64,000 nt of DNA, taken from assembly GCF_004138335.1 (NCBI RefSeq), contig NZ_RYFW01000003.1:124001-188000 (forward strand), given 5' to 3'. The position numbers and the translations under genes are program-made. The stretch's first letter is position 1. The number at the start of each line of letters is the position of its first letter. The notes beneath the pieces were generated by a model. The model was not told where the DNA came from, ran no database searches, and was given only the letters and a program-made list of their open reading frames with translations. Positions 2,957-58,770 of this stretch are shown here, in pieces. The DNA comes from Peristeroidobacter agariperforans (GTDB lineage: Bacteria > Pseudomonadota > Gammaproteobacteria > Steroidobacterales > Steroidobacteraceae).

Positions 2957-3000
2957 GGTTCCTGCAGTGCCGGGGGCGGGTACGCGTGCGGGAATCACGA
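2957..3000 (+). repeat. Dispersed repeat, copy 1 (partial core)
   Basis: It contains GGTTCCTGCAGTGCC followed by GGGCGGGTACGCGTGCGG, the core of a family with about 17 copies in this window. The 5' head of the element is not recognisable. The copy lies 85 bp past the stop of the minus-strand PhyH gene. An opposite-orientation match to another core segment (CGTGTAGCGCTTC) lies about 20 bp to the left. Confidence 0.6.
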
Positions 3001-3084
3001 TACGTTCCCGAGACCCAAGATGTACTTCGCAAGATCACCGATGCGCTGAAAGGTTTCTGGACGTATCCGCGCAGCCTGGTCCGT

Positions 3085-3750
3085 CTACGCCCGGGCATGG
3101 CGCGGAATAAAGTGGGCTTGTATCGAACGCCGCGGCCTGGCCGAGCGGTTGGCGCCGGGGCTATGCCATGCCGATGCATTGAAGATGATCATTGACCCTG
3201 CCGGACCGCACGCGACGATTTGCTCTTCGCGAGCGTCGTTTGTCACGCCAACAGGTCCGTGCGGCGTCAAATGCGATCCTGGCACGAATCGCGTGGCGCC
3301 GTTCTCGGCATCAAAGGCATCCACCATCAAGATGCAGCCCACCAGGGGCCATCCATTGGCCCGATCCTGATACGGAACGTCCACATGATGGGCCTCCGCC
3401 GGTGCGCCGGGATGGAGCGTTCTGCCGCGCATACCGCTCAGCTTAAAGGGCTCGCCGATGATCTGACGACATGCGGCCAGCAGTGGCGGATAGATGTAGA
3501 TCCCGTCGAACCCCGGCCCGCGATTTACGAAGTCATCCAGGCGCGTGGAAAATCCGTTGCGCGCAGTACGCACGTCAGCTGGATCGGCCATCCTCATCGC
3601 ATGATCGAACGCACTAGATAGCCGCTCGCAGCCGCCCTGAATGACGGGCCCCGGTATGACGACAAAGCCACTATCCCGAAGTTGTCGGGTCGACTCGAGA
3701 GGCAGACACTCCGTGGCGATGCCGTCGTACCAGTCAATCGTCTTCGTCAT
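3085..3750 (-). CDS. Phytanoyl-CoA dioxygenase (PhyH) family protein
   Basis: The 221-aa protein is a short Fe(II)/2-oxoglutarate oxygenase. The metal-binding HxD is seen in AEAHHVDVPYQD, the distal histidine in SAWHSPGANRS, and the 2-oxoglutarate-binding arginine just after it (ARPRRS). FVPGSH is also typical of PhyH enzymes. It probably hydroxylates a small molecule in the cytoplasm; the substrate is unknown. It lies between two copies of the dispersed repeat (2957 and 3782), the same arrangement as the accessory genes at 48-58 kb. Confidence 0.85.
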   Translation of the reverse strand: MTKTIDWYDGIATECLPLESTRQLRDSGFVVIPGPVIQGGCERLSSAFDHAMRMADPADVRTARNGFSTRLDDFVNRGPGFDGIYIYPPLLAACRQIIGEPFKLSGMRGRTLHPGAPAEAHHVDVPYQDRANGWPLVGCILMVDAFDAENGATRFVPGSHLTPHGPVGVTNDAREEQIVACGPAGSMIIFNASAWHSPGANRSARPRRSIQAHFIPRHARA

Positions 3751-3781
3751 ATGGCCGCCGCAGGTGCAGTGGTTCCGAACG

Positions 3782-3862
3782 ATCAGCAGCGTTCAGTGGA
3801 TGCAGGGAGTTCCGAAGAAGGGATACGCGGTGTTCCTGCAGTATCGGTGCGGGTGCGTGTGA
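3782..3862 (+). repeat. Dispersed repeat, copy 2
   Basis: A full-length copy: head TCAGCAGCGTTCAGTGGA, then GTTCCGAAGAAGGG, then core GTTCCTGCAGTATCGGTGC and GGGTGCGTGTGAG. It ends 11 bp from the stop codon of the small minus-strand ORF at 3873-4019. Translated on the plus strand it reads PKKGYAVFLQYRCGCV and then a stop. Confidence 0.85.
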
Positions 3863-3872
3863 GCTTCCTTCG

Positions 3873-4019
3873 TCACCATGTCGTGGGGACTTCTATCGTG
3901 TCGATCTCCTCGGCAGTCCACCAGTGATCAAAGCAAACTTCGAGTGCGACGATTTCATCCAGCAGTGCACGGCGTATTTCTACGTCAGCTAGAGGTAGGT
4001 GCTCAAAGAGTTCGCGCAC
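3873..4019 (-). CDS. Small acidic protein of 48 aa, unknown function
   Basis: This short ORF starts with GTG at 4019 and has a perfect AAGGAGG five bases upstream, unusually strong support for so small a gene. The product begins VRELFEHLPLADVEIRR and ends DTIEVPTTW. It is acidic and probably helical, with no signal peptide or membrane segment. I do not recognise the family. It sits alone between a repeat copy (3782-3862) and the TetR promoter region, facing away from the TetR gene, like a miniature cassette gene. Confidence 0.6.
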   Translation of the reverse strand: MRELFEHLPLADVEIRRALLDEIVALEVCFDHWWTAEEIDTIEVPTTW

Positions 4020-4130
4020 AAATGCCTCCTTACAGTTCCTCAGAATAAGCGCACGATATGCTCACGAAGTATAGCCACTCGTCGTATTGCCAATCTTCAC
4101 GGCCATGGCCTCCGTCCGGCGGATTGTCAT

Positions 4131-4156
4131 TCACACACGTGTGAGTGAATATTGAC
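4131..4156. promoter_or_regulatory. Probable TetR-family operator upstream of the TetR gene
   Basis: An imperfect palindrome centred on CACACGTGTG, with TTCAC and GTGAA arms. The right half continues GAGTGAATATTGA, closely matching a second site at 5081-5106 before the receptor gene. A TTGACA hexamer abuts its right edge. Paired sites before a TetR gene and its neighbouring operon suggest autoregulation plus target control; binding itself is inference. Confidence 0.65.
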
Positions 4157-4999: not shown

Positions 5000-5080
5000 T
5001 TTTTCGGGCTGAGCGTCGCTTCGTCGGTACAGGGGGAGGTCTCATGGGCGATGCTTGACGGCCGTTTCGGCGCTCGGACA

Positions 5081-21006: not shown

Positions 21007-21167
21007 TTGGCGCTCCTTCGACCAAACAAATGATTTCGGTGGTCGACCCGAAGATTGTACCTGCAATCTGTTACAGGCGCAGGGTATCGCTGCGACGGGT
21101 TGTGGGGGGGGCTGCGCTTCCGATACGAGTGCGCGTCCGCTGACTACGGGAAGTCTGCTTTCGCCAA

Positions 21168-22454
21168 TTAGTGACCGCTGCGCGCGCGTTTCAGCGCTTC
21201 ATCAAGAGCATCTGCGGCCGGCACCTTGACGTCGGGCTCGACTCCGGTGCTCTCCCAGTTCGTCTTGGTGATCGGGTTGATAAACCGCCCGAATGGCACG
21301 CGGATGAAGAAGTGATCGTCAATTCGGTGCGGAGCTACGGTGTGGGCGCCGCCGCCCGTCGTCTCACCGATCAGGGTCGCACGCTTGAGGCTCTTCAGGT
21401 CGTAGCTGAACACTTCACCCGCGGAAAACGTTCTATTGGATATGAGCACAAAAACATTCTTGCCAGCCTTCTTCTTTCCCGGCACGTAGGGAAACGTCCA
21501 GAACTGCTCGGTGATGTTTTGGTTGCGGTCGTAGAGGTCGTCGAGGTGCACCAGCTCGTCGAATAGATAGCTTGAGATCAGGGCCGCCATGCGCGGCGCT
21601 CCACCGCCGTTGTCCCGCAGGTCGATAATGATGGAATCGCTGTCGGCGAGGAAGGTCATGGCAGCGACCGCGGTCGATCCGCAATTGTCAGGCTCCTCAA
21701 AGCCATTCAATTTCAGATAACCGATATTCGGAGGATGGTGCTCAGCCTTCGCGAAACCGCAGTTGGTGGCAGCGAGCCGAGCAGGGTCGGGGCGGGGACG
21801 AGTGGTTGGCTCTGCGGGGGGCATGCTCTTGGCGAAGAAATCCACCGTAACGTGCTTGTCGCCGGTGAACGTGCGCAGGTCGTCGGTGAGCCGGATAGCG
21901 AAAATCTGACCATCCGTGATGTCTCGATAAGCGTCCTGCTTCTGCTGCGTTCTGAGTTTCTCCGCTGTCGTTCTCCCCACATCCGGAAACAGGTAGAACT
22001 GAGCCAGCAGTTTGGCTGCCCCGTCAATCACACGGCTGCGCTCCGCTTCATCCAAAACGACCTCCCCTGCGTTGGCGCCAGTGGGAGCGAGCTTCAATAG
22101 GCGGATATGATCTGCGTCGCTCGACCGAACTACGAGGCTGCCGAGAGTCTGTGCCGAACTCGCTCTCTCCTTGACCCGGAAAACGATCCATAACTTGTCG
22201 CCTTTATCGATAGTCACTAGATCGTAACCGCCGGTGCGCGCGCGCTGTTTCATCTCTTGGTCAAGACTCAACCACGGAGCATGGGCCTTCTGGAAGGATT
22301 GGAATGTTGCCCTATCGCCGCTGTTGAACGCGTCGAGCCACGCGGCCAACGCGTGTCCGGCCGGCGTATCTGGAATGATCGGCGCAGGTGCAGCGGCGAG
22401 CGCCAGGCCCGGCGCGATAGAGAACAGCGCTCCAAGGAATCGACCAATCGTCAT
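21168..22454 (-). CDS. S41 family (tail-specific/C-terminal processing) peptidase-like protein
   Basis: The ATG at 22454 gives 428 aa with a signal peptide (FLGALFSIAPGLALAAAP). The S41 core is seen as IGYLKLNGF, DSIIIDLRDNGGG, FVLISNRTFSAGEVFSYDLK (Ser nucleophile in TFSAGE) and LIGETTGGGAHTV. The N-terminal 150 residues have no PDZ motif I could see; they contain an AWLDAFNSGD segment like that of S41 proteins with a SnoaL-like leader. It probably acts in the periplasm. A repeat copy lies about 130 bp upstream. Confidence 0.88.
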   Translation of the reverse strand: MTIGRFLGALFSIAPGLALAAAPAPIIPDTPAGHALAAWLDAFNSGDRATFQSFQKAHAPWLSLDQEMKQRARTGGYDLVTIDKGDKLWIVFRVKERASSAQTLGSLVVRSSDADHIRLLKLAPTGANAGEVVLDEAERSRVIDGAAKLLAQFYLFPDVGRTTAEKLRTQQKQDAYRDITDGQIFAIRLTDDLRTFTGDKHVTVDFFAKSMPPAEPTTRPRPDPARLAATNCGFAKAEHHPPNIGYLKLNGFEEPDNCGSTAVAAMTFLADSDSIIIDLRDNGGGAPRMAALISSYLFDELVHLDDLYDRNQNITEQFWTFPYVPGKKKAGKNVFVLISNRTFSAGEVFSYDLKSLKRATLIGETTGGGAHTVAPHRIDDHFFIRVPFGRFINPITKTNWESTGVEPDVKVPAADALDEALKRARSGH

Positions 22455-22580
22455 GGCACCCTCTGCACGGTATTGGCTCGATATCGCTACTCTGCTGCAG
22501 CTCCCTATACCAGACATTCTCGAACGACTGCAAAGGGGCGAGGCCTGTCGCTGGACTCTGCCCGTTCAAGCAGAGCTGGC

Positions 22581-22662
22581 GGCCTCAGCAGCCCTCAGTG
22601 GAAGTTCCGTGACGCGCTACACGCGTTCCTGCAGTCTCGGTGTGCATACGCGTGCGGCGATG
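22581..22662 (+). repeat. Dispersed repeat, copy 3
   Basis: Head GGCCTCAGCAGCCCTCAGTG, then GCGCTACACGC, core GTTCCTGCAGTCTCGGTG and ATACGCGTGCGGCGATG. It ends 56 bp from the stop codon of the minus-strand 165-aa gene. Confidence 0.85.
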
Positions 22663-22717
22663 TCGGAGCGTTGAGAACGGTGGCGCCTTGCCGATAACAG
22701 CCTGCTCGATCGAGAGC

Positions 22718-23215: not shown

Positions 23216-23240
23216 TCTCCATCATAGAGGGAGAAAGGGT

Positions 23241-23328
23241 GAGCGCGCGGTAGCTTTAAGTGAATGCAGATGATTCCGAAGAAGGGGTTTGCGATGTTCC
23301 TGCGCTGCCCGTGCGCCGGCGGGTGAGA
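23241..23328 (+). repeat. Dispersed repeat, copy 4
   Basis: A diverged copy: GATTCCGAAGAAGGGGTTTG, core GTTCCTGCGCTGCCCGTGC, then GGCGGGTGAG. It is followed after 50 bp by the stop of the minus-strand DUF6624-like gene. Plus-strand translation reads IPKKGFAMFLRCPCAGG and then a stop. Confidence 0.75.
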
Positions 23329-23377
23329 TAGTGCGGTTGAGGATTCGTCAGACGGTTGGCTCCGGGCAGGCGCGGGC

Positions 23378-24163: not shown

Positions 24164-24505
24164 GAGCAGGTTCTGATGTGTGGCGGGCATTCGCAAGCCT
24201 CTGCAGACGCCAAAGTGTATCCGGACTGCTGCCGCGCTTCATGCGCCACTGCCCTCCAAATACCTTGTCTTCCTCTGCCTTTGCAATGGCGGCCAGGAGC
24301 CCACTGTCGATCTCGCCGTTCTCGCTTGCTCGTCATCAGCGAGAGCTTCAGTGATTTCATCAATGCAATCGGCCGTGGCTGCCACATCGACATTGAGAGA
24401 TGGCCGAGAGGCTCAAGGCGACGGCTACTGGTGACGATGTTCCGACAAGCCCCGTGTCGTTCAACGACGGCAGCGTACCTGCACCGCAAGGATTGGCCCA
24501 CCGAT
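24164..24505. other. Intergenic stretch without a supported gene
   Basis: About 340 bp between two minus-strand genes. Short frames on both strands lack ribosome sites or family features. I see no repeat copy here. Confidence 0.4.
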
Positions 24506-25435
24506 CTACGGTGACGATAGGACACGCCCTCGCTTGTATTGGAAATGTAATGGCAACGTCATGACGCGCCAATGGTCTTGCTCACGGTCGAACCGTCGAA
24601 CCGTGATCGAGTCATTGGCGGCACGCGTATGAAGCTCCCAATCGGTGCTGTCAAAGCCGCAGTCGTGATGCGCTGCTGGTGTCTCCACCGGCAGCCGCTT
24701 GCGCGTTTCGCGTCGAACCATACTCCAGGTCACGCCGCCGTCGTCAGATGCGAGCGTCGCAATCTCCTCCCGGGTGTCGTCGATCGACGTAGATTCGCCC
24801 TCATACGCAAGCTCGATCTCACCATTCAGCGCGCTTGTAAAGGTCATGCTCAGAGGAAAACCGTCTGGTAAAGCGTGGCCTTGCGATCGTTGAACTTCAG
24901 TGAGCTGACGCCAGGTTTTTCCTCCATCCGTGGAACCGAAAAGCAGTACGGTGCCGGGTCCTTCGACGCTCCACAGCGCCAGCGCCCAACCGTGCTGGTG
25001 GTCCGAGAAGGCGACATGGGTCAACTCGCTGCCGAGTACGGGCGACATCACCTCATGCCAGCTCTTGCCGCCATCGATAGTCCGCAGCAGAAACGAGCGG
25101 ATCGTGCCGGCGGCAACGCCTACGCCTCCGAAGAGAAACGCGACGTTGCTATCGAGCGCGCACAATCCGCTCACGTTTAGATCCACGCCGTTTTCGTCCG
25201 CCTGTTCGGACATCCAGCCAATGCCATCGAGATCGAAGTTGTCGGTCTGGAACTCTATGGCGGGTGCCGAGGATTCGGGAGCGGGGCGCTTGCACGCAGC
25301 CGAGGTCATCGTTAGGAAAGCTATGGCAGCGGCGCAGAAAGTCAAAGACAGCCTTTTGCTGAACAAGCGCACTTCCTTGCCTTTTGGGCGCTCAATTGTG
25401 CATCCGAAGGTACACGGAAGGCGAGATGCTTCCAA
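24506..25435 (-). CDS. Ycf48/BNR-repeat-like lipoprotein
   Basis: The 309-aa frame contains a lipoprotein signal (LTFCAAAIAFLTMTSAAC); GTG at 25369 may be the true start. Asp-box-like motifs typical of BNR/photosystem-assembly-factor-like beta-propellers recur: RTIDGGKSWHEV, GSTDGGKTWRQL and ASDDGGVTWSMV. It probably forms an envelope beta-propeller; the ligand is unknown. It is divergent from the ferredoxin-like frame at 25455. Confidence 0.75.
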   Translation of the reverse strand: MEASRLPCTFGCTIERPKGKEVRLFSKRLSLTFCAAAIAFLTMTSAACKRPAPESSAPAIEFQTDNFDLDGIGWMSEQADENGVDLNVSGLCALDSNVAFLFGGVGVAAGTIRSFLLRTIDGGKSWHEVMSPVLGSELTHVAFSDHQHGWALALWSVEGPGTVLLFGSTDGGKTWRQLTEVQRSQGHALPDGFPLSMTFTSALNGEIELAYEGESTSIDDTREEIATLASDDGGVTWSMVRRETRKRLPVETPAAHHDCGFDSTDWELHTRAANDSITVRRFDREQDHWRVMTLPLHFQYKRGRVLSSP

Positions 25436-25454
25436 CTATTCGGAGTGTGCGTGA

Positions 25455-25850
25455 GATGATCTAGACTGCCCAAGGTTCCACAAAAACGCGCCGGGCGCCT
25501 TCTATACGACCGGAGAGTGCCTCGCGTGCACGATACCTGAAGCAGAAGCCCCCTCGCTTCTTGCCGAGATCAACGACGAGAATGCAGACATCTATTTCAT
25601 ACGTCAGCCGGAAACACCTGACGAAGTGGAGCAGGCGTGCCGAGCTGCGTTCGTCTGTTGTGTTTCGGCCATCCGATATGGTGGTCATGACCCCATCATC
25701 ATCCGCCGTCTGGGAAATCGAGATGACCATTGTGACCACCTCCTTTCGGGAGGGCCAGTACTTGCGCCTGAGGACAACAACATGCGGTGGATGGCGGTGA
25801 TCAGCGAGCCCCGCCTTTGGTGGATCCTTTGGCGGAGATTATGGAAGTGA
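25455..25850 (+). pseudogene. Ferredoxin-like cysteine protein without a start codon
   Basis: The plus-strand frame reads DDLDCPRFHKNAPGAFYTTG, ECLACTIPEAEAPSLLAEI, then a segment ending in QPETPDEVEQACRAAF and VCCVSAIRYGGHDPIIIRRLG. The spacing of Cys residues, the EAP and the final C-x3-AI motif resemble small ferredoxins. A TGA lies just upstream at 25452 with no ATG, GTG or TTG before the first motif, while an ATG one base out of frame (25456) precedes it. A one-base change would restore a start. The tail after HCDHL looks like read-through. Confidence 0.6.
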
Positions 25851-25976
25851 TGCTCGAACACGCGTGCGAACAACTGAGCCGCGAGTTCGCCTCATGTCCG
25901 GCGCGGATCGATACAGGGTCCACGCGCAGAAGATTCCGAATGTTGCCAGGGCAGCAATCCATCTGACTATAGCCAT
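25839..25976 (-). CDS. Possible small membrane protein, 45 aa
   Basis: The frame MAIVRWIAALATFGIFCAWTLYRSAPDM... has one membrane-helix-like segment followed by a basic tail. No clear ribosome site precedes the ATG. It overlaps the end of the ferredoxin-like frame by 12 bp. Confidence 0.3.
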   Translation of the reverse strand: MAIVRWIAALATFGIFCAWTLYRSAPDMRRTRGSVVRTRVRASLP

Positions 25977-26063: not shown

Positions 26064-26132
26064 GAGCGCTCGCAACCCTAGACGTTGAAGAATCCGCCGT
26101 TCCTGCAGTGCCTATGCGGGTACGTGTGAGAT
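26064..26132 (+). repeat. Dispersed repeat, copy 5
   Basis: A shortened copy: GCGCTCGCAACCCTAGACGT, core GTTCCTGCAGTGCCTATGC and GGGTACGTGTGAG; the middle GAAGAAGCG segment is reduced. It ends 31 bp from the true stop of the minus-strand gene at 26163, and that gene's shifted frame runs into it. Confidence 0.75.
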
Positions 26133-26162
26133 AAACCCGGTGCGGCGCCAGCGCGCGTGATG

Positions 26163-26605: not shown

Positions 26606-26739
26606 CGTTAACTCCTCGCCGACGTGGTAAGACAATCGGCGCAACGCTACCGGTACTGTTTGGCTTTCGCAATTCCTATCCGATCTCATGTTGAGGATCG
26701 ATACATCGCTGCCGATCAGATCGGCGGCGCACGGCCTGC

Positions 26740-26820
26740 ACAGCAGCCATTAGCCGGCTGCCGATAACTCCGAGGAAGCGCTACACGCGGTTCCTGCAGT
26801 CTCGGTTCGATTCCCACGCG
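26740..26820 (+). repeat. Dispersed repeat, copy 6
   Basis: Head CAGCAGCCATTAG, then CCGAGGAAGCGCTACACGCG, core GTTCCTGCAGTCTCGG; the 3' GCGGGTGCGCGTGCG part is lost. It lies 135 bp upstream of the preceding minus-strand gene and 130 bp before the amidohydrolase start. Confidence 0.75.
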
Positions 26821-28417: not shown

Positions 28418-28462
28418 GCCGTTCGTAACGAGTAACTAACCGTCGAGCAGTGGAGGCGGGTG

Positions 28463-28540
28463 GAATTCAGGGCCCTCAATGGATGGTTCGCGCAGAAGCG
28501 ATATGCGCTCTATCTGCGACTCCTTGGCGGATACGGTTCA
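28463..28540 (+). repeat. Dispersed repeat, copy 7
   Basis: Head ATTCAGGGCCCTCAATGGAT, GGTTCGCGCAGAAGCGATAT, then a diverged core CTCTATCTGCGACTCC and GGCGGATACGG. It keeps the plus-strand reading AQKRYALYLRLLGGYG. It lies 45 bp after the amidohydrolase stop, on the same strand as that gene. Confidence 0.65.
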
Positions 28541-48486: not shown

Positions 48487-48573
48487 GCTCAAGACCGTGC
48501 CACGCGCGAATTCGATATCGATTAGGCAAGTCAATTGAGTGAGGCGCGCGCGGTCTCAATCCAGTGTGGATAT

Positions 48574-48690
48574 CTGCGGCCTTACGTGGACTGATCGCGA
48601 AGAAGCGCTACACGATGTTCCTGCAGCCTCTGTGCGGGTGCGCGTGCGATGACACGAGCGGCCGGCTTCGGGCCCAGGAGCGGACGATCA
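48574..48690 (+). repeat. Dispersed repeat, copy 8, with hairpin tail
   Basis: Head CTGCGGCCTTACGTGGACTG, GAAGAAGCGCTACACG, core GTTCCTGCAGCCTCTGTGC, GGGTGCGCGTGCGATGAC, then a tail GCCGGCTTCGGGCCCAGGAG that also occurs in copy 16. It ends 26 bp from the stop of the minus-strand membrane protein gene. Confidence 0.88.
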
Positions 48691-49133: not shown

Positions 49134-49243
49134 TTGGGCGTCTAATAAGGCAATGTAACGACACCGGTGCCTGCACACTCTCGTAATCTCATTGCATGCC
49201 ATAAGGGATGATGCCGCTCTGGCATCCCGGAACAGCACTCCAG

Positions 49244-49334
49244 AGCGCTCAGCGGCCTTCAGCGGATGCAGGCAATTCCGGAGAGGCGCTACCCGCTGTT
49301 CCTGCAGTCTCCGTGCGGGTGCGCGTCCGATGAC
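49244..49334 (+). repeat. Dispersed repeat, copy 9
   Basis: The best-preserved copy: GCGCTCAGCGGCCTTCAGCG, GCAGGCAATTCCGGAGAGG, core GTTCCTGCAGTCTCCGTGC, GGGTGCGCGTCCGATGAC. Positions 49286-49296 and 49315-49324 pair fully apart from one bulged T, forming a 10-bp stem around the core. It ends about 100 bp before the BlaI promoter region. Confidence 0.9.
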
Positions 49335-49437
49335 TGCTTGAGCCATTTCGCCATTCGCCTCAAGTTGTCGTGTGCGCCAGAAATGATTTGGTCGTCCCTT
49401 TTTCCGCCCATGGCACTGAACCGCTTGACCATATTGA

Positions 49438-49493: not shown

Positions 49494-49874
49494 ATGGAAG
49501 ACCTTCCTTCCATCAGCGAGGCGGAGTCAGCGGTGATGGAAGTGTTGTGGCGGACCAGTCCGGTCTCCACAGAGGACGTGGTGGCCGCTCTGAAGAATCG
49601 GCAGGATTGGCAGGAGCCGACGATCAAGACACTGCTAAATCGTCTATTGAAGAAAGGAGCTATCAGCGCTCAGAGAGACGGTCGCCGCTATTTGTACTCT
49701 CCCGTGCTTCAGCGCGACCAATGGCTCGCGCGCGAAAGCAAGGGACTTCTGGACCGGCTGTTTGGCGGTCGCGTCGCGCCGCTCGTGGCGCATTTTAGCA
49801 AGCAGCGGAAGTTGACCAAGAAGGACCTCGCGGAACTCAAACGCCTGATCGAGGAGCTCGAAGATGAGCGTTAG
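49494..49874 (+). CDS. BlaI/MecI/CopY-family repressor
   Basis: The 126-aa protein starts MEDLPSISEAESAVMEVLWRTSPVSTEDVVAAL, the winged-helix N-terminus of penicillinase-type repressors. QEPTIKTLLNRLLKKGAISAQRDGRRYLYSPVL is the recognition helix and wing. The C-terminal helical part mediates dimerisation and is where paired M56 proteases cut. AGGAG precedes the ATG. It overlaps the M56 gene by 11 bp, the classical repressor/sensor pairing. Confidence 0.92.
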   Translation: MEDLPSISEAESAVMEVLWRTSPVSTEDVVAALKNRQDWQEPTIKTLLNRLLKKGAISAQRDGRRYLYSPVLQRDQWLARESKGLLDRLFGGRVAPLVAHFSKQRKLTKKDLAELKRLIEELEDER

Positions 49875-51084
49875 CCCGATGTACGTGATCGCAGAGCTGA
49901 CGGTCGCAGCCAGCCTGGCGATTTTCGTTGTAGGGCTCACGCGCAAACCGCTGAGGCGTTTTGCCGGTGCGCAAGTGGGCTATCTGTTGTGGCTGCTTGT
50001 GCCCGCTAGTGCGCTCGTTGTGTCACTTCCGGCGCCCTCTCAATCCTTGGAAGCGGCAAGCCTCACTTTTCCGCGTCTGGTGCTCAGCGCACTCCCTTCG
50101 GCTGCGTCATCAGAGAAACACGTCTATGCAGGTGCCGATTACGCCACGGTGGGAGTGGTTGTTTGGGCCTCGGGCTGCGTGTTGATCTTCGCGTTCATGG
50201 TGAGGAGGCAGAGAGCGTTCATCCGCTCCTTGCGCAACGTGACGGCTGCTCAGGACGGTACGTATCGCAGCGCCTCTGTCATCGGCCCTGTACTCGTTGG
50301 CATTTGGCGTCCTCGCATCGTGCTTCCGATCGACTTCGAGAATATGTACACCCCGGAAGAACGCACCTTGGTGCTGGCGCACGAGGAGGCACACAAGAAG
50401 CGATTCGACGTACTCGTCAATGGCATCGCCACAATCTGGCTATGTCTCTTCTGGTTCAATCCACTGATGTACTGGGCCATAGCGCGGTTACGGTTCGATC
50501 AGGAGCTGGCGTGTGACGCGGCCGTATTCGTTGAATCGGACACAGGACGACGCCGGTACGCCGAGGCTTTGCTCAAGACGCAACTCGCCGCCGATTCAGC
50601 GTGGCGTATGCCGATCGGATGCCATTGGCAATCTAGCCATCCATTGAAAGAGAGAGTCGCCATGCTTAAACATCCCTTACCAGGCTTCTCGCGCCGGCTT
50701 TCCGGGATTGTACTGACGTCCGTGCTGATCACCTCTGGCAGTTATGTTGTCTGGGCAGCCCAGCCCGAGCCGGGAGATTCGGGCGAGCAGCACCAAGAAG
50801 ATCCGCAGATCGAGTTCTCTGCGGATCGCGTGTCAACGTTAGAAAACGGCGACATCGACTATTCAGGCAACGTCATCATCAGATCGAAGAGTACCGATCA
50901 ACCTCGGGTGACAATCAATCCAGGCACTATCGATAACAGGCCCGATGGCTCGACGGTCGCGGTAGGCGCAGTGCGAATTTCGTTCGCAGGTCTCGTGCTG
51001 AAAACCGATCGAGCAATCGTCGAGAAGGACGGAACAATCAGAATGGATTCAGCTCGCGCGTTGCAGACATCGGAGTCCCACTAG
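49864..51084 (+). CDS. M56 (BlaR1/MecR1-like) membrane protease sensor with LptA/OstA-like C-terminal domain
   Basis: The 406-aa protein has membrane helices (LTVAASLAIFVVGLT, VGYLLWLLVPASALVVSL, TVGVVVWASGCVLIFAFMV) around the zinc-protease core with HEEAH (HExxH) in LVLAHEEAHKKRFDVLVN, then LRFDQELACDAAVF. After one further helix near residue 285, the C-terminus (IEFSADRVSTLENGDIDYSG, NVIIR, LKTDRAIVEKDGTIRMDSA) resembles the LptA/OstA beta-jellyroll of lipopolysaccharide transport, not the penicillin-binding domain of BlaR1. It probably cleaves the BlaI-like repressor upon an envelope signal. Confidence 0.85.
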   Translation: MSVSPMYVIAELTVAASLAIFVVGLTRKPLRRFAGAQVGYLLWLLVPASALVVSLPAPSQSLEAASLTFPRLVLSALPSAASSEKHVYAGADYATVGVVVWASGCVLIFAFMVRRQRAFIRSLRNVTAAQDGTYRSASVIGPVLVGIWRPRIVLPIDFENMYTPEERTLVLAHEEAHKKRFDVLVNGIATIWLCLFWFNPLMYWAIARLRFDQELACDAAVFVESDTGRRRYAEALLKTQLAADSAWRMPIGCHWQSSHPLKERVAMLKHPLPGFSRRLSGIVLTSVLITSGSYVVWAAQPEPGDSGEQHQEDPQIEFSADRVSTLENGDIDYSGNVIIRSKSTDQPRVTINPGTIDNRPDGSTVAVGAVRISFAGLVLKTDRAIVEKDGTIRMDSARALQTSESH

Positions 51085-51191
51085 ATAGTCCAAGCGCAGG
51101 TTGAGCGTTCGTGCTGATCACACCGCGGATATCGACGCGAGCGATGTTCGAGCGCAGTGACTCATTCTTCGCCGTGAGTCCGCGAGGGATA

Positions 51192-51276
51192 CGGCTCCCG
51201 CTAGTAGACGCAGGCAATGCCGCCGAAGGGATTTGCGCCGTTCCTGCTGCGGTACCGATCCGGATTCGAGTGAGGT
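51192..51276 (+). repeat. Dispersed repeat, copy 10
   Basis: A diverged copy: GACGCAGGCAATGCCGCCGA, AGGGATTTGCGCC, core GTTCCTGCTGCGGTACCG, GATTCGAGTGAG. It ends 32 bp from the stop of the minus-strand VapC gene. Confidence 0.75.
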
Positions 51277-51307
51277 AGCTCGAATTGCGTATCTCCGATG
51301 CAGGACA

Positions 51308-51703
51308 TCAGGCCGCAATAAACCCTGGCAGCTTTGTTGCCTTGACGTTGAACGAAGCAGTTGCGCGGCATCCCAGGGCACGATGCCTTGCGCCGATTAG
51401 ACAATCCGCAAAGTCGGCAGGCGAGTCTTTCCATGCGAACAGAGCCTTCTCGATGGAATGCTCGTCTTCAAATCGCAACTCGGCTGACGCAAGGAGTCCT
51501 GAGAACGCGGCGAGGATCTCCGACTTTGCCAAGCTGTAGCGGCTTCGCAGTACCCATTCTGTTTCTAGCAATACCAGGAGGCTGATGAGTACACCGCTAC
51601 CGGTGCGTAACTCGCGACCGATCAGCTTCTGCGCGCGCTCGAACTGCGCCTGATCGTCTTGAACGAGAAAGCGCACCAAAACATTGGTGTCGAGGCCGAG
51701 CAT
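51308..51703 (-). CDS. vapC: VapC-family PIN-domain ribonuclease toxin
   Basis: The 131-aa protein begins MLGLDTNVLVRFLVQDD (first catalytic Asp), has ETEWVLRSRYSLAK (Glu) and DFADCLIGARHRALGCRATASF (acidic residue cluster), all PIN features. VapC toxins cut tRNA or rRNA. Its start shares one base with the stop of the AbrB-type antitoxin gene. Repeat copies 10 and 11 flank the pair, making a self-contained TA cassette. Confidence 0.93.
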   Translation of the reverse strand: MLGLDTNVLVRFLVQDDQAQFERAQKLIGRELRTGSGVLISLLVLLETEWVLRSRYSLAKSEILAAFSGLLASAELRFEDEHSIEKALFAWKDSPADFADCLIGARHRALGCRATASFNVKATKLPGFIAA

Positions 51704-51921
51704 TATCGGGACAGCAGCTCAACCGGAACGGCCTTTTGCCCTTTCTTCCGCAGGCTTCCGGCAAGACTCATCACGCTCTTGTTCTTGACGCGCATGAGAA
51801 CGGTGCCATCCGGCAGCATGGTAAAAGTCATCCGGTCGCCGGATTTCATCCCCAGGGTTTCCCGGATGTCTTTAGGAATAGTGGTCTGTCCCTTACTGGT
51901 CAACGTCGAATCTGTGCTCAT
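51703..51921 (-). CDS. vapB: AbrB-type (VapB) antitoxin
   Basis: The ATG at 51921, with GGAGG nearby, gives 72 aa: MSTDSTLTSKGQTTIPKDIRETLGMKSGDRMTF, the swapped-hairpin AbrB/SpoVT DNA-binding domain, followed by a tail that would bind VapC. A longer frame to 52014 is rejected because its N-terminus has no family support. The pair is likely autoregulated from the region before it. Confidence 0.92.
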   Translation of the reverse strand: MSTDSTLTSKGQTTIPKDIRETLGMKSGDRMTFTMLPDGTVLMRVKNKSVMSLAGSLRKKGQKAVPVELLSR

Positions 51922-52034
51922 GGCTTCACCTCCGGTCCTTACAGAATTCATACTAGTAAGGAATGGATGGGAATTCAATCCTGGTTGGTTAGAGGCGTTC
52001 AGGCGGCTTTGCACTCTCTGCGGTCATCGGTGGA

Positions 52035-52141
52035 TGTCAGCGGTGCTCCGTGGAGTGATAGGCAAGAAGCGCTACGCGTTGTTCCTGCGGTCTCCATGCG
52101 GGTACGCGTGCGGTGATTACGAAGCGTCTGCTCTCGGCCGG
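52035..52141 (+). repeat. Dispersed repeat, copy 11, with hairpin tail
   Basis: Head ATGTCAGCGGTGCTCCGTGG, GCAAGAAGCGCTACGCG, core GTTCCTGCGGTCTCCATGC, GGGTACGCGTGCGGTGATTA, then CGTCTGCTCTCGGCCGGACG. It ends 46 bp from the stop of the minus-strand 148-aa gene. Confidence 0.88.
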
Positions 52142-52633: not shown

Positions 52634-52860
52634 TGTGAATAGACCTCCCTCTAATTTTACAACTGAGCGATGTGGAATTCTGGAGCCTTCGGTGGAATGG
52701 TTCCGCAGAACGGCTTTATACCTCCCCAAGCTCATATGTCCGGACCCTCTCCCCGCCACCGGTGATTAATGGGTGTTCCATATCTACTTCCTTTGTTCTG
52801 GAAGTGGACGCGCCGACAAATCTATTGAGGTCACTGCAGGTTCAATTCGCCTAACTTGTT

Positions 52861-52922
52861 GATCGCGGCGGCGGTAAACCGATTTGTGCTGTTCCTGCAG
52901 TTCCCGCCGCCGAGCGTGTCCG
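52861..52922 (+). repeat. Dispersed repeat, copy 12 (partial)
   Basis: GATCGCGGCGGCGGTAAACC, GATTTGTGCT, core GTTCCTGCAGTTCCCGCCGC, CGAGCGTGTCCG. The 5' head is not recognised; a GCCTAACTTGTTG segment lies just before it, the only attC-like core-site match seen among the copies. Confidence 0.65.
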
Positions 52923-54311: not shown

Positions 54312-55268
54312 AAGCCGCTCTCTATGCGCGTTTCAGCACCGACCTGCAGCGGGCGGCCAGTATCGAAGATCAGTTCCGCAACTGTCGTAAGGGTGCGGAG
54401 TTCGAAGGCTGGACGGTGGTATGAGCGTGCCCAGGATCGCACGCGCGCCTCAGCCAACAGCGATAAACGGCTCAAGAGCGGCGGTCGGGCAAAGTACCTG
54501 CTGAGCGGGCTGCTGGTGTGCAACGTGTGCAAAGTCCACTACGTCATTGCCGATGCCCGGAGCTACGCATGTAGCGGTCACTGGAATGGTGGTGCGTGCT
54601 CGAACCAAATCCGAGTGCGACGTGATTCCATCGAACGGACGATCCTGGGCCGACTTCGCGGTGATCTGTTGGCGCCGGAGCGAGTACGCCAGATGGCGAA
54701 GGAAATGCAGGTCGCTTATGCCGAGCAGGTGAAGCAGGCTGCGATGCGAGTACAGGCGCTTCCTCTGGAACTGCAGGCATTGGATGCCCGAATCGAACGA
54801 CTGCGGGAGCGGCTGAAGTGCGGTGATCCGGACCTCACAGCCGACGAATTGCAAGCTGCGATCGAGCGTGCCGGGACCAAGCGCGCCGAACTGAGCGATA
54901 CCCGCCCGGCTGAGCGTGAGAACGCGCGGGTGCTCGCCATGCTGCCGCGAACTGCCGACTACTATCGGGATCAGATCGATCGAGGCTTGGGTGACGATAT
55001 TGTCGCTGCCGCCGAAGCGCGGGCGATTCTGCGCGACATGCTGGGCGAAATCATGCTTTCGCCCAGCACCGATGGATCGCTGTGGGCGGAGTTTTCCATG
55101 CAACCTGCGGCCCTGTTGAAAGGTGCAGGACATGTGGTCGGGGTGAGGGGCTACACGCTGTTCCGGCGGTCTCGGTGCGCGTTCGCGTGCGATGAGGACT
55201 ATCGGGGCAAGGGGGCTTCGCGCCGCTCTACAGCGTCTTCTCGGAGCGCTTGTAGTTGCCATAGGTGA
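54308..55268 (+). pseudogene. Large serine recombinase with internal deletion
   Basis: The 5' piece, MKAALYARFSTDLQRAASIEDQFRNCRK, carries the catalytic Ser of the resolvase domain, then a stop follows GWTVV at 54424. From 54424 another frame starts inside the recombinase domain: KYLLSGLLVCNVCKVHYVIA...YACSGHWNGGACSN (zinc ribbon), a coiled coil (EQVKQAAMRVQALPLELQALDARIERLRERL) and a C-terminal region. About 200 residues of catalytic and recombinase domain are missing, so it is inactive. Repeat copy 13 overlaps the 3' end. Confidence 0.85.
55146..55196 (+). repeat. Dispersed repeat, copy 13 (partial)
   Basis: GGGGCTACACGCTGTTCCGG, CGGTCTCGGTGCGCGTTCGC, GTGCGATGA. The head is missing or was replaced by the end of the recombinase remnant. 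It ends 32 bp from the stop of the minus-strand lipoprotein gene. Confidence 0.75.
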
Positions 55269-55602: not shown

Positions 55603-55856
55603 CTCGTTTCTGTACCCCACTACTTGAGTTCACGAGCCGCGCGGCATCTAGCGCGTCGGATCGAGGCGGCTCGGATCAGGATGAATCTTGACTGAGGCAG
55701 ATTGATGGATTGATTGTGGCAAATCGGGGCGAGCTGACTCCGTTCGACCCGTAAGAATTGGAAGTCCGGCGCGGCCGCCCCAAGAAGCGGGGTAACACCC
55801 TGCTTTGCGGATGCGGCCTGCTGCTTGGCGCACTTCCGCTCAACCGGCGCAACAGA

Positions 55857-55948
55857 GCACTGAGCAGCCGTTAGTGGATACAGGCAGTTCCGAAGAGGAG
55901 GGGATTTGCGCTGTTCTGGTGATCAGAATGCGGATACGGGTCAGATAG
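55857..55948 (+). repeat. Dispersed repeat, copy 14
   Basis: Head CACTGAGCAGCCGTTAGTGG, CAGGCAGTTCCGAAGAGGAG, GGGATTTGCGCTGTTC, then a diverged CTGGTGATCAGAATGCGG and ATACGGGTCAGATAG. It ends 6 bp from the stop of the minus-strand VapC gene. Confidence 0.8.
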
Positions 55949-55953
55949 CAGCA

Positions 55954-56373
55954 CTACTTCCAAGGATTCACTATAGATTTCACAGAGGCTTCAAAGTCCA
56001 AAGTGTTGCGAGTGACCAAGGTAAGGGCATGCACTTGGGCGGTGGCTCCGATGATTGCATCCATTGCATGGATGGGGCGACCGAGGGATTCGTGGCGGGC
56101 AACCAAGCGACCCCACTCATCGGCTACGGCTCCATCCACCGGCAAGATGCGCTGCTCGAACCGGAGCGGCAATTCTCCCTTTAGCCACTCATCCAGCTGT
56201 TTCTTGCGCTTACCCGTCGGCAGTCTCTCAATACCATGGCGCAATTCAGCGAAGGTGATCACGCTGAGATAAACCGAATCCTCGTCGATCTCCGAGAGCC
56301 AGCTTACGACACCGGCATCTGGGCGGGGTTTCGTCCATTCGGAAACGACATTGGTATCGAGCAGGAAGTTCAT
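55954..56373 (-). CDS. vapC: VapC/FitB-family PIN-domain ribonuclease toxin
   Basis: The 139-aa protein begins MNFLLDTNVVSEWTKPRPD (PIN Asp), with SVITFAELRHGIERLP (Glu), HAMDAIIGATAQVHALTLVTRNTLDF (Asp residues and TRN). It is of the FitB-like type and unlike the VapC at 51308. Its start overlaps the upstream Phd/YefM antitoxin stop by 4 bp. Repeats 14 and 15 flank the pair. Confidence 0.93.
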   Translation of the reverse strand: MNFLLDTNVVSEWTKPRPDAGVVSWLSEIDEDSVYLSVITFAELRHGIERLPTGKRKKQLDEWLKGELPLRFEQRILPVDGAVADEWGRLVARHESLGRPIHAMDAIIGATAQVHALTLVTRNTLDFEASVKSIVNPWK

Positions 56374-56624
56374 AGATCAGTCGGGCGCATCCGATCTTTC
56401 GGTCTGCGGACCTTCAAACCCGAACTGCGCAGGGGAGACGCTGCGAAGAATTCGGCGAGATTGCCGCTGCGTTTTGTTCTTCGTTCCCATTCTGCAGCGT
56501 CAACGACAACCACGGCACGGCGCCCGTTACGGGTGATAACTTGCGGGCCTTCCTTCTGGGCATGTTCGATGACTTCGCTCAGTTTGGCTTTTGCCTCTGC
56601 CACCGTCCAAAGGTCGTTGTCCAC
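56370..56624 (-). CDS. Phd/YefM-family antitoxin
   Basis: The 84-aa protein is MDNDLWTVAEAKAKLSEVIEHAQ, EGPQVITRNGRRAVVVVDAAEWERR, the N-terminal DNA-binding Phd/YefM fold, followed by a disordered, basic tail (GNLAEFFAASPLRSSGLKVRR) that would mask the toxin. A GAGAG ribosome site precedes it. It pairs with the VapC-type toxin. Confidence 0.92.
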   Translation of the reverse strand: MDNDLWTVAEAKAKLSEVIEHAQKEGPQVITRNGRRAVVVVDAAEWERRTKRSGNLAEFFAASPLRSSGLKVRRPKDRMRPTDL

Positions 56625-56701
56625 GATGCCTCTCCTTCAATTGGTCAGGATAGTCATTATAGTCATCGGCCGATGGTTGGCAAGCCAGTCGGATAGTCCA
56701 A

Positions 56702-56788
56702 AGCGCTCAATAGCCTTCAGTGGACTGGTCGCGCAGAAGCGATTTGCCCTGTTCCTGCGGTCGTCGCGCGTATCCGCGTAAGGTGATT
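56702..56788 (+). repeat. Dispersed repeat, copy 15
   Basis: Head AGCGCTCAATAGCCTTCAGT, GGACTGGTCGCGCAGAAGCG, ATTTGCCCTGTTCCTGCGGT, CGTCGCGCGTATCCGCGTAA. Plus-strand reading SGLVAQKRFALFLRSSRVSA, then a stop. It ends 30 bp from the stop of the minus-strand 240-aa gene. Confidence 0.85.
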
Positions 56789-56817
56789 GGGCCGCGTGAG
56801 TTCGACCACGGTCGAGC

Positions 56818-57540
56818 TTAGATTGCATCGACCAGCGTCGGATCTTCAACGGGACCTAGCGCCCGGCGGACGAACTGAACGATGGCTGTACCTTGCGTAT
56901 CAGCCATCGCCCGAGCTGGCACTCCGGTCGTGTCGTCGCTCCACACTGTCCAGATCGCCAGCAGTCCCGGTAGCACCTCGACCACTGCAGTACAAAAGTT
57001 TGATTGTTTGTCGCATCCGACTTCGGTGGCGCCCGCTCGGAGGGCCATGTCTTTGACCTGGTCGTATTGACGCTCCTTGCCAACCGTCCAGTGATACTGG
57101 AGGAGATCTAGCTTGTTACGGTCCAAGAGCTCGAACCTTTCAGGCAAACGTCGAAGTAGGCCGTCATGCGTCCCGAGGCATAATGATTGCGACCACTTCC
57201 GCGCGAGCAAAGGACAGATATTGCTCGAACCTAGATAGTCGCCCGCATATTGCCTGATCACAAGTTCGAGATTGTCTGCTCTGGCGGGTCTTTTCGGATC
57301 GCTCGCCGACCGCGTTAGCCGATCCCTGAGGCTCTGTTTGGGCTTGCGTTCGCTCAGGTCAAACGTGTGGTCGGGCATGCCGATCGCAACGGCGGGAGTT
57401 ACGATGTGTTGACCGCCGATCGTGAAATGAAGGTCTGAAGCAAGGAACTGTACATCGGGCGGCGGCAGAGATTCCGAGCACCCGGCAACCAAAACTATAC
57501 AAAGTGCAGCTGCTACCAGAGGGCGAGCAAGATTTTCCAT
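56818..57540 (-). CDS. Lipoprotein of 240 aa, unknown
   Basis: The product starts MENLARPLVAAALCIVLVAGC (lipobox). The mature sequence has FLASDLHFTIGGQHIVTPAVA, a Lys/Arg-rich linker and a C-terminal part with Cys pairs (SSNICPLLARKWSQSLCLG, VGCDKQSNFCTAVVEVLPGL) that probably form disulfides. No family is recognised. It lies between repeats 15 and 16. Confidence 0.8.
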   Translation of the reverse strand: MENLARPLVAAALCIVLVAGCSESLPPPDVQFLASDLHFTIGGQHIVTPAVAIGMPDHTFDLSERKPKQSLRDRLTRSASDPKRPARADNLELVIRQYAGDYLGSSNICPLLARKWSQSLCLGTHDGLLRRLPERFELLDRNKLDLLQYHWTVGKERQYDQVKDMALRAGATEVGCDKQSNFCTAVVEVLPGLLAIWTVWSDDTTGVPARAMADTQGTAIVQFVRRALGPVEDPTLVDAI

Positions 57541-57730
57541 AGGCGATTTGCAGGCGATGCCGAACGGCTCGGCAAGGAGCTGACATTCCTTTGACGTCGC
57601 TGGGCATCCGAACCCGATGCCACGATTCTAATCCCGCCATCTCGGGGAATCTGCGATGAATTGTGGCAGGCGAGCGCGTAGTACGCCCACTGGGCCGGAT
57701 CGAAGACGGCGAGAACGTACTGGCCCAAGA

Positions 57731-57850
57731 TCGCTCAGCAGCCTTCAGTGGAAGTGGCGACGAAGCGCTACACGGTGTTCCTGCAGTCTTCATGCGGATA
57801 TGCGTGCGGTGATCACGAGACGCCAGCTTTCGGACCAGAAGCGGACATCG
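57731..57850 (+). repeat. Dispersed repeat, copy 16, with hairpin tail
   Basis: Head TCGCTCAGCAGCCTTCAGTG, GACGAAGCGCTACACGG, core GTTCCTGCAGTCTTCATGC, GGATATGCGTGCGGTGATCA, then tail CGCCAGCTTTCGGACCAGAA, GCGGACATCG, resembling copy 8. It ends 89 bp from the stop of the minus-strand HEAT-like gene. Confidence 0.9.
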
Positions 57851-57938
57851 ACGCTCCGATTGCTGGCATTACCCGATGTCGGAATCGGAGTCCGTGACAA
57901 GCGTCCGCGAAGTGCTGCCAAGTCTCTCCAGCGCGTGA

Positions 57939-58577
57939 TCAGGACCGCGTCGATCTCGAGTTCTGTTGGAGTGTGTCGAGGCTGTTCGCCATCTCAGGGC
58001 GAACTTCGTCGTCACTCTCGACGCCCAGAGCATCCTGCAGGTGTGGAATCAGAGTGTTGGCTTCTAATGGATAGTGCGCGAAGGCCTCAGCCACTGTCCG
58101 CCGTATATCAGCGTGCGGATGCTTCAAGTAGGGAACTAGCAGTCCCAGTGCCGCAAGGCCGCGCTCGCGAACGTCTGCAACGATTTGTCGTTCCCTGGTA
58201 ATCCGCTGTTCGAGATCGGGAGGATGCGGGATCGGCTTCTTGGTGAACGGATTGAGTGTCGTGACTGCTTGGTGGGCCTCCCAGTAACCCCGTCCACTCA
58301 GGATGCACGCAATGAGAAGAGCGAGATCATCGCGCTGTGGCTCCGGTACTCCCTTGTTACGAAGGAGCTCAATGAGAAAGGGCAGTGCAAAGTCCGTGGC
58401 CTCGTAGACAGTGCCTTGGTGCCAGATGTTCGGAAACAATTCCTCAATCGCCCGTTCTCGCTCCGCCGGAGCGCCAGAGTACAGGCACCGAATCTGCCCG
58501 GGCACATCGGATGCCACGCCGTAGGCATGACTTAGGCGTTCCCAAGGAATTTCGTCAAGCTCGCTGATACTTGGCAT
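57939..58577 (-). CDS. HEAT-repeat-like protein
   Basis: The 212-aa protein starts MPSISELDEIPWERLSHAYG (an extra ATG at 58580 is equivalent). Repeated helical units are visible: FALPFLIELLRNKGVPEPQRDDLALLIACIL, GLAALGLLVPYLKHPHADIRRTVAEAFAHYP and TLIPHLQDALGVESDDEVR, the HEAT pattern of protein-binding superhelices. The role is unknown; such single HEAT proteins are frequent in accessory arrays. Repeats 16 and 17 flank it. Confidence 0.85.
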   Translation of the reverse strand: MPSISELDEIPWERLSHAYGVASDVPGQIRCLYSGAPAERERAIEELFPNIWHQGTVYEATDFALPFLIELLRNKGVPEPQRDDLALLIACILSGRGYWEAHQAVTTLNPFTKKPIPHPPDLEQRITRERQIVADVRERGLAALGLLVPYLKHPHADIRRTVAEAFAHYPLEANTLIPHLQDALGVESDDEVRPEMANSLDTLQQNSRSTRS

Positions 58578-58696
58578 CAACCCAGTTTACGCTGCGTGCC
58601 AAGAGATTTCTTGCTCAATGCAGCAAAGGCCGGCAGAGATCGAGACAGTGGAGCGTCCTCTTTGGGGTCGAAAGCTGCTGTCCGGTGAAGCGCTCC

Positions 58697-58770
58697 TGAG
58701 CGTTCACTAGTCTTCAGTGGACGCAGGCAGTTCCGATGAAGGGATTTGAACCTGCGCCTGTGGAGGTCAA
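58697..58770 (+). repeat. Dispersed repeat, copy 17 (partial)
   Basis: Head GAGCGTTCACTAGTCTTCAG, GACGCAGGCAGTTCCGATGA, AGGGATTTGAACC, after which the core is degenerate. It lies 117 bp upstream of the HEAT-like gene and closes the array; no minus-strand gene follows to its right. Confidence 0.75.

Follow-up and report, generated by a model that had tools for sequence, protein, structure and literature searches.

The closest described relatives of the arrays discussed here come from four kinds of system. Composite islands of the staphylococcal cassette chromosome mec (SCCmec) in staphylococci combine large serine recombinases (LSRs), tandem att repeats in one orientation, and recombinase-less modules, in all of which they resemble these arrays. 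Integron cassette arrays consist of small cassettes with one site per cassette and one orientation, and they carry similar cargo. In tRNA-targeted genomic islands (Islander), as here, the tRNA is kept at one end and a tRNA fragment is found at the other. Finally, cis-mobilizable elements (CIMEs) and accretion islands are recombinase-less, att-bounded units in tandem beside an integrase-bearing element; sections of a review (PMC5704250) describe tandems of such elements, one of them at a tRNA-Lys 3' end. The subject of this report is a repeat family in a 64,000-nucleotide stretch of the genome of Peristeroidobacter agariperforans (contig NZ_RYFW01000003.1, positions 124,001 to 188,000; hereafter, the window). 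The copies of this repeat are very probably junctions of mobile cassettes. Judging from the sequences, these junctions are probably made by a family of tRNA-targeting LSRs, and the reading that we prefer, and hold to be a probable one, is that LSR elements and cassettes lacking a recombinase would be joined head to tail in arrays, with one common attachment system.

These arrays consist of att-bounded tandem units without a recombinase gene, as CIMEs do, with approximately 0.4 to 2.8 kb between copies within clusters (refined model, see below). Unlike CIMEs, the window-type units are that small, have few genes, and occur many per array, and the enzyme linked to them is a serine, not a tyrosine, recombinase. 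They differ from SCCmec, the features of which are taken here from general knowledge, in that the target is a tRNA gene end rather than rlmH, the cassettes are far smaller, and the hosts are gammaproteobacteria. In contrast to integron arrays, the sites have neither the attC fold nor the attC core sites, and the IntI integrase is encoded elsewhere in the genome. The literature searched, which lay mostly outside subscription papers, yielded no description of such arrays in the parts consulted.

The genome that contains the window (G000; 7.65 Mb, 17 contigs, with the window on contig C11) was compared with other genomes, designated G001, G003, and so on, of which G011 and G003 represent congeners; L numbers denote extracted loci. 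A window profile built from 15 seed copies with nhmmer detects 16 strong copies (E ≤ 1.4e-9) and 3 weak ones (E from 5.5e-4 to 2.8e-3), 15 of the strong matches being seeds, so that their E-values are partly circular. The first-pass annotation had counted about 17 diverged copies, all in one orientation, and this description holds: all 19 window copies are on the plus strand, and the mean column identity among copies is 60%. The motifs defined there are also enriched relative to 100 dinucleotide shuffles per motif. The head motif is found 8 times (0.20 expected), the middle motif 5 times (0.04 expected), and the end motif 4 times (0.02 expected), always on the plus strand. The core motif, GTTCCTGCAGTCTC, is found with up to 3 mismatches 22 times (20 on the plus and 2 on the minus strand) versus 6.24 expected, a number that none of the 100 shuffles reached, some of the 22 being chance matches. 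The copies form clusters at 2.9 to 3.9, 21.1 to 28.6, and 48.5 to 58.8 kb.

A full copy consists of a left arm, L (GCGCTCAGCAGCCTTCAGTGGA...), a short core that ends in GAAG, and a right arm, R (CGCTACACGCTGTTCCTGCAGTCTCGGTGCGGGTACGCGTGCGGTGA). A genome-wide sequence model was made with 13 window copies as input, and 150 of 3689 first-look candidates were scored; in the refined model (cut-off E < 0.01), copies were assigned to the full, R-only, and L-only classes from profile positions. The refined model finds 50 copies in 8 genomes, comprising 29 full copies, 17 with the right side only, and 4 with the left side only. The copies are modular. They are not all alike, as some hold the left or right half alone, and the picture of a stand-alone dispersed repeat in the first-pass annotation is not supported: the copies are built as L-core-R and separate accessory genes. 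The copies, the cassettes between them, and the LSR remnant in the window are as follows.

2932..3006, plus strand: repeat copy, right side only (nhmmer E 1.4e-9)
3769..3879, plus strand: repeat copy, full L-core-R (nhmmer E 3e-25)
21112..21151, plus strand: R tail only, directly left of the S41 peptidase cassette (weak, E 0.0028); the homologous G001 cassette has a similar tail ahead of it, by eye
21162..22545, minus strand: S41 peptidase cassette (Pfam PF03572), 95.5% identical to a G001 cassette at another locus (blastn)
22574..22672, plus strand: repeat copy, full (nhmmer E 3.4e-17)
23234..23341, plus strand: repeat copy, full (nhmmer E 1.7e-20)
24487..25864, no strand assigned: piece common to the window and G001:C13, 88% (blastn); R-like stretch at its left edge in G001, by eye
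26078..26145, plus strand: repeat copy, right side only (nhmmer E 6.6e-12)
26738..26820, plus strand: repeat copy, R tail truncated (nhmmer E 7.1e-15)
28456..28555, plus strand: repeat copy, R arm divergent (nhmmer E 2.8e-13)
48568..48658, plus strand: repeat copy, full, class B core (nhmmer E 1.6e-21)
49234..49340, plus strand: repeat copy, full, class A core (nhmmer E 3.1e-26)
49494..51084, plus strand: cassette genes for a BlaI-type repressor and a BlaR1-type M56 peptidase (Pfam PF03965, PF05569)
51189..51286, plus strand: repeat copy, full (nhmmer E 4.2e-17)
51308..51924, minus strand: cassette with PIN toxin and AbrB/MazE-type antitoxin (Pfam PF01850, PF04014/PF15937)
52025..52127, plus strand: repeat copy, full (nhmmer E 1.9e-20)
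52675..52717, plus strand: decayed left half (weak, E 5.5e-4)
52871..52906, plus strand: decayed right half (weak, E 0.0019)
54324..55268, plus strand: LSR remnant, 3' end abutting the tRNA end and R arm (Pfam PF13408; 47% identity to the G000:C12 LSR)
55099..55203, plus strand: R-side copy, with GTGGTCGGGGTGA (tRNA-Pro 3' end) at 55134 followed by the R arm (window profile; sequence reading)
55853..55956, plus strand: repeat copy, full, not a seed (nhmmer E 2.5e-11)
55921..56691, minus strand: Phd/PIN toxin-antitoxin cassette, present in 4 genomes (blastn; Pfam PF01850, PF02604)
56694..56796, plus strand: repeat copy, full, class B core (nhmmer E 1.1e-21)
57726..57822, plus strand: repeat copy, full (nhmmer E 1.1e-22)
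57939..58580, minus strand: cassette gene, HEAT-repeat-like, slightly under the Pfam cut-off
58689..58751, plus strand: left side only, ending in GAAGGGATTTGAACCTGC (tRNA T-arm antisense) at 58738 (window profile; tRNA comparison)

The left half is missing in the copies at 2932, 26078, and 55099 (26092 and 55130 in the refined model, which does not recover copy 2932 at E < 0.01), and the right half is missing in the copy at 58689. The intergenic location initially assigned to the repeats is correct for most of them but not strictly for all, since the serine recombinase remnant and copy 55099-55203 overlap at the 3' end of the former. There are no intact tRNA genes in the window.

The half copies reveal the probable origin of the core. 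The tRNA-Pro(CGG) gene was detected by ARAGORN in 10 genomes of the genus, with the antisense reading TGGTCGGGGTGACAGGATTTGAACCTGC in 10 out of 10. Its 3' end, TGGTCGGGGTGA, heads some of the R-only copies: the pattern TGGTC[GA]GGGTGA, with at most one difference, stands directly before R in 5 of 17. On the other side, two of the three L-only copies in G000 (window 58689 and C9:2002485) continue into GAAGGGATTTGAACCTGC without a mismatch, while the third (52680) is decayed. Apart from these two L-only copies, G000 has only two places that come within 2 mismatches of GAAGGGATTTGAACCTGC: one is the tRNA, and at the other the intact LSR gene ends. The core looks like a tRNA 3' end, ancestrally that of tRNA-Pro(CGG), and the array ends (tRNA 3' end plus R at one, L plus T-arm at the other) together with the inner L-core-R copies can be viewed as attL, attR, and attP-like sites, as in site-specific integration. 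The single orientation inside an array would then result from the asymmetry of the core, which makes joining directional.

The enzyme linked to these sites is an LSR. The intact LSR encoded on contig C12 of G000, with Resolvase, Recombinase, and zinc-ribbon domains, ends beside GTGGTCGGGGTGAAGGGATTTGAACCTGC. There are 9 LSR matches in 7 of 40 genomes; every one of these matches leads up to the 3' end of a tRNA or to the corresponding sequence. The G011 LSR ends at the intact tRNA-Pro(CGG), those of G008 and G009 end at tRNA-Met(CAT), and that of G002 ends at a decayed tRNA-Pro. The TGGTCGGGGTGA sequence is the end point of the G000:C12 LSR, the first G001 LSR, and the window remnant; the second G001 LSR ends at another tRNA (tRNA-Pro by eye), and a partial G016 match stops approximately 240 bp short of a sequence that, read by eye, is like the G008 tRNA-Met. 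In the window, the remnant, at 54324-55130, fills the L slot, directly ahead of the tRNA end and R, indicating that LSR units and cassettes occupy the same slot. It is the only LSR match on C11. Two LSR elements that are 90% identical over 4.3 kb lose homology within approximately 15 bases of the core. A derivation of the L arm from a decayed LSR gene end was also considered; five similarity tests left it unsupported (p 0.16 to 0.93).

In loci L159, L160, L161, and L163 (from G008, G009, G016, and G001, respectively), the 3' ends of LSR genes lie at tRNA-Met or another tRNA; the tRNAs targeted by serine recombinases may extend beyond tRNA-Pro(CGG). The part of PMC6536676 that bears on this point has a single serine recombinase phage predicted at tRNA-Met, and later reports may exist; the word tRNA is absent from the main text of PMC10083194.

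The clearest case is a 10.9-kb element of G011 (C31:10047-20941), which sits exactly in tRNA-Pro(CGG), a site that is empty in relatives. Its left flank continues unbroken into the G009 sequence behind tRNA-Pro(CGG) (1,139 bp at 86% identity, reaching the tRNA end); G001 and G000 have shorter matches to this flank, and three other genomes have none at E ≤ 1e-4. Its right side corresponds to the tRNA and the sequence beyond it in all six genomes compared. The element carries genes for an LSR, a relaxase, and a NikA-like protein, and its contig encodes no tyrosine recombinase detectable with PF00589 at E ≤ 1e-5. The pairing of a relaxase with an LSR makes it a candidate integrative mobilizable element (IME), a class that has a relaxase and an integrase but no transfer apparatus. 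As far as its sequence allows one to judge, it fits an LSR integrative element at tRNA-Pro(CGG), with a repeat of the tRNA 3' end as its boundary. A further gene of this element, at L165:10331-12970, encodes an HD-CE/HATPase protein.

The free end of the G011 element was compared with a profile of the R arm, from which this end itself had been excluded. The profile used 38 of 52 hits at E < 0.01. Four rows without an anchor (L093 8889 and window 28471, 52680, and 55863) were left out, and 10 half, shifted, or duplicate copies were removed by hand (L048_14494, L052_6313, L085_10573, L098_8836, L089_9080, L094_300, and window 58705, 22585, 26092, and 51198). The G011 end scores 10.9 bits at the expected register, as opposed to -33.6 to -78.0 in 12 other registers, and none of 20,000 shuffles does as well. 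Six sequences were scored in this way: p was 5e-5 for the G011 end, 5e-5 for L052 (itself a repeat copy), 0.002 for the G001 sequence after the LSR, 0.07 for the C12 sequence after the LSR, 0.08 for L058, and 0.40 for tRNA-Pro. The window repeats match the G011 element in the R arm, in exact register; the L arm is not shared.

A competitor of the LSR as the enzyme behind the junctions is a tyrosine integrase that targets tRNA 3' ends, with the LSR a bystander on the same tRNA. The long arms suit tyrosine attP sites. In addition, one tyrosine integrase open reading frame (ORF) adjoins the tRNA-like site at G000:C12, another lies approximately 1.2 kb from a copy in G003:C5, and passages of PMC4383910 name tRNA 3' ends as the classic target of such enzymes. 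However, the element found in tRNA-Pro(CGG) of G011 has an LSR and no tyrosine recombinase detected on its contig, LSR gene ends reach tRNA ends in 9 of 9 cases, and C11 has no PF00589 match at the same threshold. On balance, we regard a tyrosine integrase as an improbable source of the junctions.

Two other identities were considered for the repeats. Small cassettes in one orientation, toxin-antitoxin and beta-lactamase cargo, and the presence of a true IntI in the genome would all suit the attC sites of a chromosomal integron. G000 indeed encodes a canonical integron (C12:287372-288313 and locus L060), with IntI (489 bits on TIGR02249) and a typical attC array, and 10 true attC sites from this integron served as controls. 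Folding of 17 of the 29 full copies gave mean z-scores of -0.18 and 0.00 for the two strands (lowest, -3.15), compared with -4.31 and -4.09 for the controls. The core pair RYYYAAC / GTTRRRY was found in 0 of 17 copies and in 5 of the 10 control attC sites as trimmed. With no fold, no core pairs, and the IntI gene and the true attC array located on another contig, we give the attC explanation almost no credence. The first-pass annotation had itself listed attC among the identities to check, along with REP and IS fragments; Rfam has no family that matches at its gathering score. Fragments of a second intI are found on G000 contig C2.

The remaining identity, that of repetitive extragenic palindromic (REP) sequences, miniature inverted-repeat transposable elements (MITEs), or insertion sequence (IS) remnants scattered by a transposase, would agree with short, mostly intergenic, and numerous copies. 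Such sequences are, however, very unlikely here: the copies show no stable fold (the consensus fold of 13 copies is negligible, at -1.39 kcal/mol), have one orientation, are clustered rather than dispersed, and include half copies that break near one core. A cysteine-rich reading frame seen in the copies was dropped, as indels, by eye, break the frame.

Carrying the search to the rest of the genome and to relatives, as the first-pass annotation had suggested, shows the family to be clustered in a few loci. In G000, there are 24 matches at E ≤ 2.3e-5, including 15 in the window, 2 elsewhere on C11, and 7 on C9; 23 of the 24 are on the plus strand of their contig. The repeat model matches 8 of 60 genomes, the genome of the window included, of which 7 are among the 14 of the genus and 1 belongs to another genus of the family. 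A search across 369 genomes of the class, for which the filters were stricter and 11 candidates per genome shown were scored, had a match in G000 alone. The soil strain Peristeroidobacter soli JW-3 (Steroidobacteraceae, Gammaproteobacteria) has the same copies as G003, in an array near 1,310.5-1,316 kb of NZ_RYEV01000004.1. A pattern scan of genome contigs gave 7 stretches. The P. soli array accounts for 2 of them; L118, from a gammaproteobacterial metagenome-assembled genome, resembles a copy with the tRNA end and R; and 4 look by eye like chance, though L117 has an E-value of 2.4e-6 in a small set. A scan of viral sequences gave a single stretch, identical in sequence to L116.

The distribution of the cargo between the copies supports an exchange of cassettes between loci. 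The array at 48.5 to 58.8 kb includes BlaI/BlaR1-like genes, PIN/AbrB and PIN/Phd toxin-antitoxin pairs, and a gene for a HEAT-like protein; the proteins encoded between copies at 48702, 52187, 55228, and 56818 have no Pfam match. The C9 array encodes a NADAR protein, a class A beta-lactamase, and an S41-like peptidase under the Pfam cut-off. As read from the ORF list, the genes run mostly opposite to the repeat in the last array of the window and in G003, and both ways in the C9 array.

The Phd/PIN cassette (55921-56691) is also found, beside such junctions, in G001 (92.2% identity), G003 (93.6%), and G009 (81.9%; all by blastn). In the window, its left edge falls within a model-found R tail; in G009, it follows an R copy at a distance of 76 bp; and in G003 and G001, it is next to stretches recognized by eye as R tails. 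On the right, the distance from the edge to an L-bearing copy is 16 bp in the window, 127 bp in G003, and 85 bp in G009; in G001, an R-side copy lies 41 bp away. In the blastn comparisons, these loci otherwise share no homology, except that the window and G009 also have the preceding tRNA-end-plus-R junction in common (137 bp, 83%). In G001, the counterpart of the S41 cassette is flanked by two convergent genes; an R tail, read by eye, precedes it, and there is no L arm on the other side. G001:C13 unites two pieces that are found on different contigs in G000, and G003 has two occurrences of one piece, which follow a full copy at distances of 75 and 101 bp. The right end of a second peptidase cassette, shared by G000:C9 and G001:C13, loses homology within approximately 15 bases of the core. 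Cassette-level exchange is supported by these sequence comparisons, and core-precise exchange is suggested by a few cases. As for the age of the family, which had been assumed to be old, the copies are diverged, but the genes between them are up to 95.5% identical across genomes, so the system is not merely old.

In one region, 9.3 kb around a repeat copy (L049:6242-15543 / L089:1-9302) are 99.98% identical between G000 and G001, compared with approximately 90 to 95% for neighboring genes, which indicates recent transfer.

The insertion sites of two arrays were examined in related genomes. The C9 array forms part of a 6.2-kb insert, which separates convergent genes for a major facilitator superfamily (MFS) protein and a kinase; the aligned blocks there are approximately 20 bp (G003) and 35 bp (G011) apart. 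G001 carries a different 6.2-kb insert at the same MFS/kinase spot. The gap at C9:1998-2002 kb (L048, L113, L114, and L115) is therefore an insertion hot spot, with different 6.2-kb inserts in two species. No empty site was found for the 48.5- to 58.8-kb array, either with its left flank in 4 genomes or with its right flank in the 13 other genomes of the genus. On the left, a near homologue (G001:C2, 80%) exists only for the gene that ends at 48486, with no repeat in the 40 kb surrounding this homologue; on the right, there is a 66% match in 1 of the 13 genomes.

Cassette sharing alone could have another cause. Junctions made once by integrases may now be shuffled passively, through homologous recombination between repeats and transfer of whole islands. 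Consistent with this, the copies are divergent, with the mean column identity given above, the 9.3-kb block shows that large pieces move, and for 18 of 32 shared-piece edges, a repeat was detected only at a distance above 100 bp or not at all. Repeats of 85 bp with 60% identity are, however, poor substrates for RecA, and the right edge of the peptidase cassette and the edge of the LSR elements both lie at the core. Serine integrases seldom recombine like sites, according to passages of PMC3783163, which again favors passive shuffling. We view it as a possible but rather doubtful account of the arrays.

Under the reading that we prefer, with LSR elements and cassettes in head-to-tail arrays, a mobile unit, either a small cassette or a larger LSR element, would begin on the left with R and finish on the right with L or with the 3' end of the LSR gene. 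The arms would meet at a short core that resembles a tRNA gene 3' end, originally that of tRNA-Pro(CGG). A unit inserted beside an existing junction would generate a full L-core-R copy, and at the outer boundaries of the array, one side could show the tRNA 3' end followed by R and the other L followed by the tRNA T-arm. With an asymmetric core, all junctions of one array would share their direction. The LSR would act in trans to form the cassette junctions, and the cassettes would still be moving.

Several results weigh against this scheme. The R arm is conserved over approximately 50 bp and is longer than an LSR half-site, LSR attP half-sites measuring approximately 25 bp in passages of PMC3783163; as stated in the same passages, LSRs do not readily recombine sites other than attP and attB, and the arrays require such joining. 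A clear tRNA end is absent in 12 of the 17 right-side-only copies, and the L arm has no similarity to LSR gene ends in the five tests mentioned above. An unregistered alignment of R with the G011 end was nonsignificant (p 0.12), and a first R-arm profile test, one base off and with misanchored rows, gave p 0.62. Among the 14 genomes of the genus, 5 have both LSR and repeats, 1 has the LSR only, 2 have repeats only, and 6 have neither, a weak co-occurrence (p 0.05). For the 7 shared pieces, 14 of 32 edges are within 100 bp of a model-found repeat, a count for which there is no chance expectation; only some of them are at the core, and several R tails at such edges are by-eye readings. Between the window and G009, the whole unit 55269-55952 was gained or lost with edges approximately 73 bp beyond R and not at the core. 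The empty site of the C9 array is the gap of approximately 20 to 35 bp without a tRNA, which the model leaves unexplained; this array may have arrived from another place and brought its tRNA fragment along. The LSR-tRNA link in 9 of 9 cases and the edge count of 14 of 32 pull in opposite directions and leave our assessment of the preferred reading unchanged.

Two further observations concern other sequence motifs. By eye, a palindrome similar to GTCCGCTTTCGGCCAGAAGCGGAC follows several copies (e.g., window 57830-57850), and a GGGTCGAAAGCTGCC-like sequence stands ahead of these copies; the repeat unit may extend past the 100 bp described here. Two near-palindromic CACACGTGTGAGTGAAT-like copies, at window positions 4117-4159 and 5068-5110, are located ahead of a TonB receptor gene and are perhaps an operator pair.

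Stacking of single-gene cassettes is known mainly from integrons, whose sites act as folded single strands. The arrays described here look similar, yet their sites do not fold and are tied to a serine recombinase and the end of a tRNA gene. Their cargo, which comprises toxin-antitoxin pairs, a class A beta-lactamase, BlaI/BlaR1, and peptidases, resembles that of other adaptive gene stores. We suggest, only tentatively, a serine recombinase counterpart of the integron in Steroidobacteraceae, independent of IntI and attC, in which an LSR acting on double-stranded sites derived from tRNA 3' ends would capture, stack, and reshuffle small gene cassettes, all in one orientation. If the LSR does act on these sites, gene stockpiling would have arisen more than once, tRNA genes would be targets of serine integrases too, and the junctions would represent a new class of directional LSR sites.

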